From a virus: a DNA stretch of 23,092 nucleotides. Below, piece by piece: positions 2,391 to 18,401 of this stretch. The notes under the pieces were generated by a model. It searched no databases and was not told the DNA's origin. It was given only the letters and a program-made list of their open reading frames with translations. Location of the stretch: IMG/VR virus record IMGVR_UViG_3300021963_000682, positions 1 through 23,092 of that record. One strand, 5' to 3'. Within the stretch, counting starts at the first letter, position 1. Each line of letters starts with the position of its first letter. The position numbers were made by a program, and so were the translations under genes.

Positions 2391-2714
2391 ATGGCTCCCA
2401 AGCGTGGACCGAAAACTGAAACCCTAGAACGCTCTGAACGTTTCGCTCGCATCATTGCTAGCGGTGGTCGGCGTTCTGATTGCATCCGTTATGCACGGGA
2501 AAACTGGGGGGTAAAAGATGACGCCTGTGATCTTTACCTCCGCCTTGCACGCGAAAAACTCAAGGCTGACTGGGATATTGAGCGACCACAAATGATCGCT
2601 GACCTACTATCTCAGTGCTCAACACTGCAGATGGAAGCCCGTCGTGCTGGGCAATATCACATTGCCTTAGGCGCCATCAATACCGCTGCACGCTTGGCGC
2701 AACTCTGCTCGTGA
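2391..2714 (+). CDS. terS: Terminase small subunit
   Basis: 107 residues. The protein is basic at its start (MAPKRGPKTETLERSERFARIIASGGRRSDCIRYA...), with a helix-turn-helix-like segment at about 12-45 followed by a helical region (LYLRLAREKLKADWDIERPQM), as expected for the DNA-recognising ring of a packaging motor. Size and position directly before the large subunit, with the GTG of that gene overlapping its TGA, are the main evidence. It would bind the packaging site (cos or pac) and load the large subunit; no site is identifiable here. The sequence is too divergent to name a specific family. Confidence 0.75.
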   Translation: MAPKRGPKTETLERSERFARIIASGGRRSDCIRYARENWGVKDDACDLYLRLAREKLKADWDIERPQMIADLLSQCSTLQMEARRAGQYHIALGAINTAARLAQLCS

Positions 2715-4030
2715 GCATCCTTAACGCAGTACCAGGTGGTTCCATCCTTGAAAATCCGATCATTGGTGGCATCAACCCAGACTGGTCACACGTCAGCAAT
2801 GATCTATTCCTCAGCCTGACAGATCCACAACGTCAAGTTTGGGAATCGCCTGAACGCTTCAAACTCCTGTGTTCTGGACGAAGGTTTGGCAAAACTTACC
2901 TTTGCATCGCACGTTTAATAGCCTGGGCAATCGACAAGCCTGGAAGCCTTAACTGGTACGTGACAGCTAACTACCGCATGGCAAAGCAAATTGCCTGGCG
3001 TCAGTTAAAAACGATGGTACCGTCTGACATCTGCGTCAAACGAAATGAATCTGAACTTTCAGTCGAGTTATATAACGGCAGCATCATCGCGTTGAAAGGT
3101 GCTGAAAATGCAGATAGCCTTCGTGGCGTTAGCCTTTCTACCTTAGTTATTGATGAGGCAGCATACGTCAAACAGACAGCATGGGAGATGGTTTTACGTC
3201 CGGCGCTCTCTGATCAAGGTGGTCCGGCGTGGTTTATCACGACGCCTGCAGGACTTAACTGGTTTCATGACTTATGGGAACAGGTTGATCAGGAAGATGA
3301 CTGGCGCACCTTTTCGTTCACGACAATCGAAGGTGGTAACGTCCCGCCCGAGGAAGTAGAAGCTGCTCGCCGCACACTAGACGAACGTACCTTCCGCCAG
3401 GAATACCTAGCCTCCTTTGAAACCCTATCCGGTCGTGTCTACCCAGACTTCTCTGATGACAACATCACCACAGACGTTGCTGATACGGGCGGTGATATTC
3501 TCTGGGGCACTGACTTTAACGTCAGCGTTATGGCTGGTGTACTTGCTAGCCGTGTTGGCGATACAATCCACATCTGGGATGAACTCGCGGTAAAACAGTC
3601 CAACACTGATGAAGTCTGTACGCTCCTTAAACAGAGATTCCCGAACCGGCGAATTGTTGCTTATCCAGATCCAACAGGGAGCGCCCGCAAGACATCTGCG
3701 GCTGGTGAAACCGACCACGGCATCATCAGACGCTGCGGCTTCCAATGCATCACACCAAAGCACCCGTGGGCAGTAAAAGACAAAATCAACGCTACCAACT
3801 GGATGATTCGTACCGCTGACGGTCATCTCAAACTATTCATCCACCCACGCTGCAAGCACACCATCAAAGCACTGAAAAACGTCACCTACAAACAAGGCGC
3901 AGACGATTACGTTATTGACAAATCAGCAGGCATTGAACACTGGACCGACGGTCTAGGCTACCTAATCCTGGGCGCCTTCAATCCGCTGTACATGCAAGCT
4001 GGCAAAGGCACTGGGATTCGGGTATATTAG
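2711..4030 (+). CDS. terL: Terminase large subunit (packaging ATPase and nuclease)
   Basis: The preferred start is the GTG at 2711 (439 residues), overlapping the small subunit stop; a GTG at 2615 would add 32 residues that fit only as a shadow of the small subunit. The N-terminal ATPase has a Walker A-like SGRRFGKT (55-62), a Walker B LVIDEA with catalytic D148-E149, and a TTP coupling motif (WFITTPAGLNWF). The C-terminal RNase H-like nuclease shows the acidic triad: D268 in GTDFNVSVMAG, D320 in YPDPTGS, D413 in HWTDGLGY. All key residues are intact. It translocates DNA through the portal and cuts it at the end of packaging. The length is usual for the family. Confidence 0.95.
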   Translation: MSILNAVPGGSILENPIIGGINPDWSHVSNDLFLSLTDPQRQVWESPERFKLLCSGRRFGKTYLCIARLIAWAIDKPGSLNWYVTANYRMAKQIAWRQLKTMVPSDICVKRNESELSVELYNGSIIALKGAENADSLRGVSLSTLVIDEAAYVKQTAWEMVLRPALSDQGGPAWFITTPAGLNWFHDLWEQVDQEDDWRTFSFTTIEGGNVPPEEVEAARRTLDERTFRQEYLASFETLSGRVYPDFSDDNITTDVADTGGDILWGTDFNVSVMAGVLASRVGDTIHIWDELAVKQSNTDEVCTLLKQRFPNRRIVAYPDPTGSARKTSAAGETDHGIIRRCGFQCITPKHPWAVKDKINATNWMIRTADGHLKLFIHPRCKHTIKALKNVTYKQGADDYVIDKSAGIEHWTDGLGYLILGAFNPLYMQAGKGTGIRVY

Positions 4031-4055
4031 TACGCGTTCATCTTTGAGCCTACCA

Positions 4056-4373
4056 ATGCTCGTCGGTCAAGAACTACTCGCTAAAGTCCGCGAACTGAAA
4101 GACCTCAACAAGTCTGATCTGGTTCGTGAATGCGGCTACGTCAAAAATGACAAACTCTGCTTTACTCAGTTTTATGAGGCGCTTCTGGAAGCCAAAGGCG
4201 TTGAACTGACCAAACCTGCCAAGCGTGGTCGTGCCTTGACCTACAAGACCAAGGTTCAATTCAATGGCAAACTGATGGTTGGTGAAAGCTACGTCCAGGA
4301 AATGGGTTTCCAACCTGGCGATGAGTTTGAAATCAAACTCGGGCGGAAGTCTGTTACCCTCGCCGCTATCTAA
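4056..4373 (+). CDS. Cyanobacterial-type AbrB (cyAbrB) transcriptional regulator homolog
   Basis: 105 residues from the ATG at 4056; a TTG at 4044 would add four. The sequence follows the cyanobacteria-specific cyAbrB pattern almost segment by segment: GQELLAKVRELKDLNKSDLVRECGYV, then FTQFYEALLEAKGVELTKP, then a C-terminal AbrB-like DNA-binding beta domain (VQFNGKLMVGESYVQ... GDEFEIKLGRKSVTL). Unlike Bacillus AbrB, this family carries the DNA-binding domain at the C-terminus, as here. The loop after CGYV is short, and the acidic tail of cellular copies is missing. Cellular cyAbrBs are broad regulators of carbon/nitrogen metabolism and redox-linked genes. It sits 25 bases after terL and 26 before portal, so it would be made late. 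Reprogramming or competing with host cyAbrB is inference. Confidence 0.88.
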   Translation: MLVGQELLAKVRELKDLNKSDLVRECGYVKNDKLCFTQFYEALLEAKGVELTKPAKRGRALTYKTKVQFNGKLMVGESYVQEMGFQPGDEFEIKLGRKSVTLAAI

Positions 4374-4399
4374 ACTGATTCAAAACCTGCGGCATAACA

Positions 4400-5848
4400 G
4401 TGGTCTACACCGGGTTTAACCATTACGATCGTCAGCTCACCGCAAGAGTCGCTCACGTCAACGACCCTAATGCTGCATGGCGTAATCAAGAGCCCCACTG
4501 GATCCTGTTAGAAGATTTGATTGGCGGCACGTATGAACTACGGCGTCGCCATCGCAGGTACTTGCCACAAGAACCACGCGAGCTGGATGAAAGTTACGAC
4601 AATCGTCTGGCTCGTTCGGTTTGTCCTCCTTACTATCAACGTCTTGAGCGGATGCTGGCGGGCATGTTAACCCGTAAGCCTGTCAGGCTCAATGATGTTT
4701 CAGACTTGGTGCGCGAACAACTGTTCGACGTTGACTTGCAAGGTAATGACCTCAACGTCTGGACGTATGAAGCTGCACGCAAAATGGTGCGTTACGGGCA
4801 TGTAGGTGTTTTAGTTGATGCGCCTGCTGCTGGTGAAAATGGCAGACCATACTGGTGCAGCTATACGCCGCGTGAAATTTTAGGCTGGCGCACTGAAATG
4901 GCAGATGGTGCACAACAGCTAAGTCAGTTGCGCTTGTTAGAAAAAGTGATCGTGCCTGATGGCTTGTACGGCGAAAAAGAAGTCGAGCAGGTGCGTGTAT
5001 TGACTCCTGGTGCTTTTGAAATCCATCGTCGTAGTGACAAAGGCAATTTTGAACTGCATGATCAAGGCACCACAACCTTGAGTGAAATACCATTCACCGT
5101 TGCTTATGCCAACCGCGTGAACTTTATGGAATCACGCCCACCGTTGGAAGACATTGCAGAACTGAATCTCAAAGCCTATCAAGTTCAATCTGATCTGGAC
5201 AATCAACTGCACATTTCTGCAGTGCCAATGCTTGCATTCTTTGGTTTCCCATCATCGCCAGAAGAAGTATCCGCTGGTCCTGGTGAGGCGATCAGCTTCC
5301 CCAGTGATGGCAGGGCACAATACATCGAGCCTGATGGCAAGAGTTTTGAGGCACAGTTTCGTCGCTTGGAACAAATTGCTGTACAGATTAATGAACTTGG
5401 CTTGTCTGCTGTGCTCGGTCAAAAACTTAGTGCAGAAACGGCAGAAGCTAAGCGCATTGATCGCAGCCAAGGTGATAGCACCATGATGGTGATTGCGCAA
5501 AATATGCAAGACCTGATTGATAACTGCCTTGTGTTTCATGCTGAATATCTAAACATCCCGCAGGCTGGCAGCAGTTTTGTCAATCGTGATTTCCTTGGCG
5601 CCAGACTGGAACCTGCCGAGATTCAGTCGCTGCTCTCTCTTTATACCGCTGGCACCATCACGCAAAAAACGCTCCTTGATCAGCTTTATGAAGGCGAAGT
5701 CCTTGGGGATGAGTTTGACGTAGAGGAGGAACTGGAAGCAACTCAAAACGGTGGCTTGATTGAAATGGCACCGCCAGAGCAACAAGCTATTGAGACAATC
5801 CCAGTTGATTCCGCAAATCCGGATGACATTGACGAAATCCCGGCATGA
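4400..5848 (+). CDS. Portal protein (DUF4055-like)
   Basis: 482 residues from a GTG at 4400. The N-terminal region (WILLEDLIGGTYELRRRHRRYLPQEP, then NRLARSVCPPYYQRLERMLAGMLTRKPV) is characteristic of DUF4055 phage portals, and the middle has the wing/stem pattern (YGHVGVLVDAPA..., RPYWCSYTPREILGWR...). A long helical region (ADIAELNLKAYQVQSDLDNQLH) corresponds to the clip/stem area. The C-terminus is acidic and Glu/Pro-rich. The portal forms the dodecameric ring at the capsid vertex through which terminase pumps DNA and to which the connector binds. Its place between terL and the head morphogenesis gene supports the call. Its end overlaps the next gene by ATGA. Confidence 0.88.
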   Translation: MVYTGFNHYDRQLTARVAHVNDPNAAWRNQEPHWILLEDLIGGTYELRRRHRRYLPQEPRELDESYDNRLARSVCPPYYQRLERMLAGMLTRKPVRLNDVSDLVREQLFDVDLQGNDLNVWTYEAARKMVRYGHVGVLVDAPAAGENGRPYWCSYTPREILGWRTEMADGAQQLSQLRLLEKVIVPDGLYGEKEVEQVRVLTPGAFEIHRRSDKGNFELHDQGTTTLSEIPFTVAYANRVNFMESRPPLEDIAELNLKAYQVQSDLDNQLHISAVPMLAFFGFPSSPEEVSAGPGEAISFPSDGRAQYIEPDGKSFEAQFRRLEQIAVQINELGLSAVLGQKLSAETAEAKRIDRSQGDSTMMVIAQNMQDLIDNCLVFHAEYLNIPQAGSSFVNRDFLGARLEPAEIQSLLSLYTAGTITQKTLLDQLYEGEVLGDEFDVEEELEATQNGGLIEMAPPEQQAIETIPVDSANPDDIDEIPA

Positions 5849-16489: not shown

Positions 16490-16830
16490 TGGCTACTTTC
16501 CCCGCAATTACCCCGTCATACGGCGCCCAAAAAACCAGCCAGCCATCAGTCCGTAACGTCAAATTCGGCGACGGCTACAGCCAGCGCTTGCGCTTCGGTC
16601 TCAATCAAGACGCAAAGCAGTGGGACCTAACTTGGCAAAACATCAGCGAGACAAATGCCGACACAATCGAAACCTTCTTAGAAGCCAGAGCTGGCGCAGA
16701 ATCCTTTGACTGGACACCTCCCGACTCCGCAACGTCTTACAAGTGGATCTGTCAGCAGTGGAGCAAGACAATACCTTACGTAAACCGGGCCACAATTACC
16801 GCAACTTTTGTTCAGGTATTTGAACCATGA
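16489..16830 (+). CDS. Minor tail protein (gpM-like, 113 aa)
   Basis: The TAATG overlap couples it to the tape measure. The pattern FPAITPSYGAQKTSQPSVRNVKFGDGYSQRLRFGLN, then WDLTWQNISETNADTIETFLEARAGAESFDWTPP and a final beta section is that of the phage minor tail (lambda gpM) family, with the G-D-G-Y-x-Q-R and W-T-P-P signatures. It forms part of the distal tail adapting the tube to the L/J tip. Its stop overlaps the start of the L-like gene (ATGA). Confidence 0.93.
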   Translation: MATFPAITPSYGAQKTSQPSVRNVKFGDGYSQRLRFGLNQDAKQWDLTWQNISETNADTIETFLEARAGAESFDWTPPDSATSYKWICQQWSKTIPYVNRATITATFVQVFEP

Positions 16831-18401
16831 GCGAAATGTTCAAGGAGCTACTTAGCTCCAACCCTTACGCGATCATTGAACTATTCGAGCTGCATCTTGA
16901 CTTGGATTTGCACGGCAGTGCGGAGATTGTTCGCTTTCATGCTGGCGTCAACCAAAAAACACCAGCGGGCGATATTTACTGGCAGGGCGAACCGTACCAG
17001 CCGCTGCCCATTGAAGCTGAAGGGTTTGAGTACAACGGCAACGGCCAGCTCCCGCGTCCACGCATCCGCATCTCCAACTTGCTTGGCAGTATCTCCGCGC
17101 TACTGCTTGGCGTCAACGAGATCACGCCCGGCAATGACCTGACTGGCGCCAAGCTGATCCGCATCCGCACGCTCAGCCGTTTCCTCGATCCAGTCAACTT
17201 CACTGGCGGCACCAATCCTTACGGCACACCCGCGAACGAGGAAATGCCGCGTGAGGTCTATTACATCGACCGCAAATCAGTCGAAAACCGCGAGATCGTC
17301 GAGTTTGAGCTTGCCGCTGTCTTTGACTTAGCCGGTGTGCGCGCACCAAAGCGTCAAGTCATCGCCAATATCTGCCAATGGAAATACCGCAGCGCAGAGT
17401 GCGGTTACACGGGGACAAATTATTACGACGAATACGACAATCCGCTTGGTGCCACACCTGCCGTCAACTTCGCCGCCAGTGTATTTGGCAATCAGCTAAC
17501 CGCTGGCGAGACACTCAGCAATGGCGATTACATCACATCCGCCAACGGCTGGTACAAAGGCATCATGCAAAACGACGGCAACTTTGTCGTCTACAAAAAG
17601 CCTGGTCCGCAAGGCATCCCTGGCAACAATGCAGTTTGGGCAACCAACACTGTTCGGGGCAGTGGGTCGTACCAGCTCAGGATGCAGACCGACGGCAATG
17701 TGGTTTTATACAAGGATGGCAGCGAAGTGCTGTGGGCAAGTAACACCGCTTCCACAGCCTCTCCCACTACCGTCTCGTTCATTAACTGGTATCCAACCAA
17801 CGTCAATGTTGGACGCAGCGGAGGCTTTGGTTACGAGATGGTGGGATCCTCGCCCAGCGCACTGGGTCAAACGCAATCCGTCACTTACACATTCACAATC
17901 AGCACCGGCAAAACAATCCGGCTAACTATCGGATTCACATCTTTTGAAATACCAGCCGACCCCCCGCACTACTCCGGCCAGTCCTTTGGCTGGGGCGCCA
18001 GTTCTTACACAATCGTCAGCTCGACTGGCATTTGGTATCTAAATGAAGTCTTTAACGCCACGCGCACCCTCAGCGACGGCAACCCGTTTAAGTACAACAA
18101 TCCCGATAGTGGCACATTGTCATCTGCTGGTCCTCAACTTCAAGTCACAGGTGTCACCGGCAACGTAAACAACCGCTTGACCCTCAACGCTGATGGTGGC
18201 TTGACCGTCTACACCAACACAAATACCGTCTTGTACGCCTCGGGCTACAGCAACAGCAACGAACCTTTAGTGACCACTGGCACGGTCGACCCACTGCGGG
18301 ATGTATGCGGCAAGCGCATCAGCTCCTGCAAAAAGCGTTTCGGCGATTATGCCGACCTACCGTTTGGGTCATTCCCCAGCGCTGGCACCTTCTACGGATG
18401 A
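16827..18401 (+). CDS. gpL-like tail tip protein with inserted bulb-type lectin domain (524 aa)
   Basis: Residues 1 to about 195 and about 490-524 form a gpL-like minor tail protein. The iron-sulfur cysteines are all present as C183-x8-C192 and C494-x6-C501, the spacing seen in lambda gpL, where only about 20 residues separate the two pairs; here about 300 do. The insertion starts near 220 with a bulb-type (D-mannose-binding) lectin: QxDxNxVxY motifs QNDGNFVVY (248-256) and QTDGNVVLY (287-295), plus a degenerate third, NADGGLTVY (454-462), separated by about 130 residues of another beta-rich segment. The frame is uninterrupted. A lectin at the tail tip suggests binding of host surface glycans; this is inference. 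Iron-sulfur binding is inferred from lambda gpL. Confidence 0.9.
   Translation: MSEMFKELLSSNPYAIIELFELHLDLDLHGSAEIVRFHAGVNQKTPAGDIYWQGEPYQPLPIEAEGFEYNGNGQLPRPRIRISNLLGSISALLLGVNEITPGNDLTGAKLIRIRTLSRFLDPVNFTGGTNPYGTPANEEMPREVYYIDRKSVENREIVEFELAAVFDLAGVRAPKRQVIANICQWKYRSAECGYTGTNYYDEYDNPLGATPAVNFAASVFGNQLTAGETLSNGDYITSANGWYKGIMQNDGNFVVYKKPGPQGIPGNNAVWATNTVRGSGSYQLRMQTDGNVVLYKDGSEVLWASNTASTASPTTVSFINWYPTNVNVGRSGGFGYEMVGSSPSALGQTQSVTYTFTISTGKTIRLTIGFTSFEIPADPPHYSGQSFGWGASSYTIVSSTGIWYLNEVFNATRTLSDGNPFKYNNPDSGTLSSAGPQLQVTGVTGNVNNRLTLNADGGLTVYTNTNTVLYASGYSNSNEPLVTTGTVDPLRDVCGKRISSCKKRFGDYADLPFGSFPSAGTFYG

Follow-up and report, generated by a model that had tools for sequence, protein, structure and literature searches.

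CyAbrB proteins (PF14250; Sll0359 and Sll0822 in Synechocystis) are the host family closest to the gene described here. ChIP-seq in Synechocystis identified cyAbrB2 as a nucleoid-associated protein of AT-rich tracts and IS elements, which tends to repress the tracts that it coats and has been proposed as a guard against foreign DNA (PMC11368403). Phage-carried homologues of host nucleoid proteins are known from other systems, namely CgpS, the Lsr2 of actinobacteriophages and the H-NS of EPV1, and phage-borne Lsr2 and H-NS have been proposed to act as silencers as well as counter-silencers (PMC8612146, PMC7074111). The morons of lambdoid phages are extra genes with their own promoter, located between two transcription units and found in some relatives only. 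We found no report of cyAbrB or AbrB in cyanophages in the open-access papers.

Here, we analyzed a viral record of 23,092 bases (the window), which carries packaging, head and tail genes of the siphovirus type. One ORF between the genes for the terminase large subunit (TerL) and the portal encodes a PF14250 protein (85.5 bits, E 2.7e-24; gathering cut-off 25). The first-pass annotation had named it a cyanobacterial AbrB regulator between terminase and portal. Both statements are borne out, because the match is above the cut-off, FYEALLEAKG and GDEFEIKLGRK are found letter for letter, and the ORF starts 25 nt after the end of TerL (4030) and stops 26 nt before the portal (4400). No PHROGs family was found for the protein. 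The ORF is not a chance one, since the same gene order recurs in scores of contigs and the median dN/dS is 0.13 (same-length members; dS is high and the values are rough). We propose, at a probability of about 0.5, that it is a moron-type cassette in a picocyanobacterial siphovirus, whose basic, nucleoid-type product displaces host cyAbrB or forms mixtures with it. The features are collected in Table 1.

Table 1. Features of the cyAbrB slot and its borders in window coordinates.
Feature	Position	Strand	Remarks
TerL, left border of slot	2615..4030	+	phrog_2, E 2.6e-42
-10-like element TATATT	4023..4028	+	from last TerL codons (GTA TAT TAG); 56/56 loci, codon choice
Cassette leader	4029..4055	+	conserved TTT..CCTAC directly 5' of ATG
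cyAbrB ORF, tail-less and loop-shortened	4056..4373	+	ATG at 4056, TAA ending 4373, 105 aa
N-terminal helical domain, residues 1-48, with Cys26 and added Cys34	4056..4199	+	AlphaFold2 pLDDT 83-89
Cys26 codon	4131-4133
Cys34 codon	4155-4157
PF14250 AbrB-like domain, C-terminal, residues 38-102	4167..4361	+	Pfam; weak Foldseek matches
-10-like element TAAACT, 5' of portal	4371..4376	+	TAA doubles as the cyAbrB stop codon
Portal, right border of slot	4400..5848	+	phrog_145, E 5.9e-112

Several other regions of the window are recorded here in their own right. A TET-associated glycosyltransferase gene (1455-2345; PF20691, E 3.9e-30) adjoins a ParB-like gene (725-1492), and this pair hints that the phage DNA is hypermodified. 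A mosaic joint lies between the small ORF upstream of TerL and TerL itself (2391-4030). The small ORF is mostly about 79-98% like its counterparts in phages with a distant TerL (27-30% alike), and kin with a TerL 74-91% alike mostly carry a 29-49% version of it. At 16827-18401, a minor tail protein L match (PF05100) precedes a long stretch in which a weak B-lectin match scores below the Pfam cut-off; this may be a receptor-binding part.

We investigated the distribution of the gene in IMG/VR. At least 173 stretches encode a close relative, and 268 do so by profile. In the best 80 of the at least 173, cyAbrB always lies 3' of TerL and, on every contig long enough to show it, 5' of the portal; the order is unchanged in the majority of viral relatives at greater distance. 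The TerL types beside the slot differ widely: in the best 80 they are 27-36% or 59-91% identical to that of the window, and a second tally of loci with this slot gives 25-36% or 67-91%. Further genes may share the slot with cyAbrB. When the count was anchored on the portal, 31 of the 68 loci holding both borders carried cyAbrB and 37 did not, so that the gene is present or absent among close relatives at one site, as in morons. In most loci without it, TerL and portal are separated by a bare 31-50 nt, whereas other genes occupy the slot in a few. Examples of other genes in the TerL-portal slot are L035:4312-5971, L045:2108-2972, L047:3217-4001 and L012:4312-4883, some of them HNH-like by eye; six other slot ORFs gave no Pfam match. 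No broken cyAbrB copy occurred among the slot-borne loci read.

The cultured phages closest by portal and capsid are KBS-S-2A, S-H1, MED4-117, MED4-184 and P-HS2. KBS-S-2A, S-H1 and MED4-184 have portals of 63-80% and capsids of 66-90% identity, but PF14250 found no match in these three genomes, nor a copy elsewhere in the contigs whose slot lacks cyAbrB. In the slot, KBS-S-2A has a small ORF of 85 aa and S-H1 one of 144 aa, neither with any visible likeness to cyAbrB. When 50,697 phage records were searched at the protein level, the only match was to the N-terminal half, in P-TIM68. Judged by this distribution, cyAbrB is a facultative cassette and not a core packaging gene, and it must be dispensable somewhere because many sister phages do without it. 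The suggestion that it is made with the packaging proteins is not supported, as the gene is facultative and is preceded by its own conserved -10-like element. A regulator that the late genes require is rejected, as the cassette is absent from half of the kin.

The cassette apparently has its own promoter. TANNNT was found at -34 to -23 of the cyAbrB ATG in all 56 distinct upstream regions, whereas background stretches of equal length had it in 3.5% of cases (7% at most). These include 18 of 18 regions in which TerL is more than 100 nt away or was not found. A promoter scan of the window returned CTGGCA-18-TATATT. Where cyAbrB directly follows TerL, the second-last TerL codon is ATA, GTA, CTA or TTA (19/19), and its final A completes TATA(C/T)T. 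By comparison, A is the third base of that codon in only 10 of 65 other kin, and inside the same TerL genes such codons end in A in 16% of cases. The nominal Fisher p-value of 6e-12 is too small because the loci are related, and descent of one cassette including its box would yield the same codon pattern and the same point. In the host, too, abrB1 is reported to have an extended -10 element but to lack a true -35 box (PMC4264147).

The leader pattern, searched for elsewhere, gave only one match per matching locus. A cassette with a similar box and leader occurs in another phage type (L329 and L334), beside a phrog_617 head protein. A hairpin with a T-run is seen by eye just 5' of the box in L028, L044 and L048; it is absent from the window, whose + strand yielded no terminator. 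Upstream of the portal, TANNNT lies at -36..-22 in 48 of 48 distinct loci with cyAbrB and in 21 of 21 without it (background 12-17%). Since this element is kept with or without the facultative gene, the idea that late-gene tuning is a required function of the protein was not upheld.

We then consider its origin in a tree of 139 rows, whose few columns leave the finer forks unsure. All 37 slot-borne proteins fall with those of L329 and L334 into one 39-row clade (support 98/96). This clade is nested inside the picocyanobacterial cyAbrBs, which part from those of other cyanobacteria at 100/100. The cyanobacterial affinity that the first-pass annotation asserted thus stands, with Synechococcus and Cyanobium as the surrounding hosts. 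Its use as host evidence gains from the same nesting and from the closest isolates, which infect Synechococcus WH7803 and Prochlorococcus MED4. The restriction of the family to cyanobacteria also agrees with our controls, in which one of 14 genomes matched, that of Synechococcus elongatus. Of 146 genomes sampled from the phylum to which a Cyanobium belongs, 64 had PF14250 matches. Paralogues are numerous in picocyanobacteria (11, 7 and 5 in three genomes), and most other cyanobacteria drawn have two; the 11 matches, in the 3 Mb of Cyanobium ATX 6A2 (G001, L082), are far over this usual number. The comparison of sequences shows that an ancestral phage acquired cyAbrB from a Synechococcus/Cyanobium-type host, after which the protein lost its acidic tail and became basic. 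In the branch of the window, the loop was lost and a second cysteine gained later.

The phage protein shares with host cyAbrB the motifs, the CGY cysteine and the domain order, with the AbrB DNA-binding domain C-terminal, after the N-terminal domain, as described for AbrB1 (PMC4264147). Unlike the host form, it is tail-less, basic, loop-shortened and only 105 aa long, has the extra Cys34 and is encoded in the terminase-portal slot. Compared with 87 distinct picocyanobacterial copies, it has five residues fewer in the loop after CGYV, whose shortness had been noticed at first reading, and its linker is also shorter. The reported lack of an acidic tail, a trait typical of the cyAbrB family although not defining, extends to all slot-borne rows (0/37 with a tail), whereas 55 of 56 picocyanobacterial rows have one. 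Its net charge of +4 compares with a median of 0 in the host copies. The short loop is real in the branch of the window. However, it changed twice on the tree among phage and picocyanobacterial rows, once within the phage group, so it arose later within the phage clade and is not a general phage hallmark.

The widely conserved family cysteine, Cys26, is kept across the phage clade. Cys34 replaces host Asn34 in 57 of 58 distinct loop-shortened phage proteins (45 + 13 as split by the loop cut-off of the script). Glutathionylation of the host AbrB2 cysteine alters oligomerisation and DNA binding (PMC4264147), and Cys26 and Cys34 are a possible redox pair. The AlphaFold2 model, built from 33 sequences, is fair for the N-terminal helical domain. 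For the AbrB domain it is poor (pLDDT 46-66), too poor to discuss a dimer, and such low values are expected for the monomer of a swapped dimer. The best Foldseek matches were the N-domain of B. subtilis AbrB, MazE and SpoVT, all weak (E > 0.3). DUF1244, the sole match in the PDB sequence search, was weak (E 0.03) and was rejected.

CyAbrB also appears in other viral contexts. Host-like copies, mostly acidic-tailed, adjoin psbA-type, ferredoxin, endolysin, DNA polymerase, RecT, dCTP deaminase or unrelated terminase genes on viral contigs, some of which could be misclassified host DNA. Examples are L331:3941-4354, beside two photosystem II D1-type genes, and L309:3965-4351, beside a phage ferredoxin gene. 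These host-like copies require about nine label changes on the tree, only two of them forced by strongly supported branches; tailed cyanophages have likely captured cyAbrB several times, the number being unsure. Three further copies from viral contigs, of 161-166 aa, end in very long and highly acidic tails (L289:4001-4486, L297:4001-4495, L300:2947-3447), the opposite of the slot clade. The marine T4-like cyanophage P-TIM68 (L162:4001-4159) and a low-GC viral contig (L368:4001-4156) encode 52 aa of the N-terminal domain only, 83% alike and with the same end point, which by analogy are possible H-NST-like antagonists. In gp246 of Synechococcus phage B23 (L166:2965-3393), the N-terminal cyAbrB domain is fused to an unrelated C-terminal part.

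At the family level (PF14250 and the tree), the window protein is homologous to a nucleoid protein of the host. Its basic charge, its missing tail and its apparent own promoter would suit competition with the host coat or mixing into it. We suggest that host RNA polymerase would transcribe the gene from its own box, apart from the late operon. The product would dimerise and coat DNA, as host cyAbrB does, and by number and stronger DNA affinity it could outcompete or join the host coat. Silencing of the lower-GC phage genome would then be lifted and host transcription reset. Median GC is 0.54 in the phages and 0.67 in the host loci, a loose comparison as the latter may not be from the host of the window. 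The DNA sites bound by host AbrB1/2 are themselves poorly defined. By analogy, phage cyAbrB would be the cyanobacterial counterpart of phage-borne H-NS and Lsr2, although its fold is unrelated and the host phylum is different. Lsr2 is moreover linked with lysogeny, whereas only one of ten large TerL-portal contigs, which may be incomplete, has a Pfam integrase; a role in prophage maintenance is not favoured for this reason. From the lambdoid morons the cassette differs in encoding a chromatin-type regulator and in its missing + strand terminator.

The same features might be explained in other ways. The phage protein might be no regulator itself but a dominant-negative poison, whose mixed oligomers with host cyAbrB cannot coat DNA, so that silencing collapses. 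CyAbrB1 and cyAbrB2 do interact (PMC11368403), the N-terminal domain is closely kept in the phage protein, and the marine-type records P-TIM68 and L368 with that domain alone recall truncated H-NST beside H-NS (PMC8612146, PMC7074111). We nevertheless hold this unlikely, because a working DNA binder fits better with purifying selection on the DNA-binding domain and a more basic protein. It is rather less probable that the gene is a regulatory auxiliary gene that reprograms metabolism at defined host carbon, nitrogen or redox promoters and does not antagonise silencing. Host cyAbrBs regulate such genes (PMC11368403, PMC4264147), and host-like copies adjoin the psbA-type and ferredoxin genes of L331 and L309. 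However, those copies lie outside the clade of the window, the window showed no photosynthesis gene, and sequence alone cannot reveal target specificity.

A purely local regulator, which represses its own promoter and times that of the neighbouring portal, seems improbable to us. The two flanking -10-like elements and the conserved leader would suit it, and host AbrB2 represses its own gene (PMC4264147), but 37 of 68 loci have no cyAbrB, the portal element persists in loci without it, and in L329 and L334 the cassette sits elsewhere. We give very little credence to a free rider, brought into a slot that gathers genes by homing or recombination and of no benefit to the phage. The other, partly HNH-like ORFs in the slot at several loci speak for such traffic, whereas the low dN/dS, the lack of broken copies among the slot-borne loci read and the host-like copies in several unrelated phage contexts speak against it.

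Counter-silencing by a basic cyAbrB remains the reading that we prefer. A broader form of it is offered tentatively, as possible but on balance doubtful: a cyAbrB coat would be the means by which cyanobacteria silence the low-GC DNA of infecting phages, and altered cyAbrBs of several kinds (tail-less basic, hyper-acidic-tailed or N-domain-only) would be carried independently by diverse cyanophages as counter-silencers. If true, this would be a chromatin-level arms race of a kind not yet described in photosynthetic bacteria. The recognition of cyAbrB2 as a nucleoid protein dates from 2024, and a widespread phage version is a ready tool for testing the proposed guard against foreign DNA. A phage copy of cyAbrB in a replaceable slot may help to overrule host gene control and, if so, chromatin control joins the known routes by which cyanophages take over their photosynthetic hosts.
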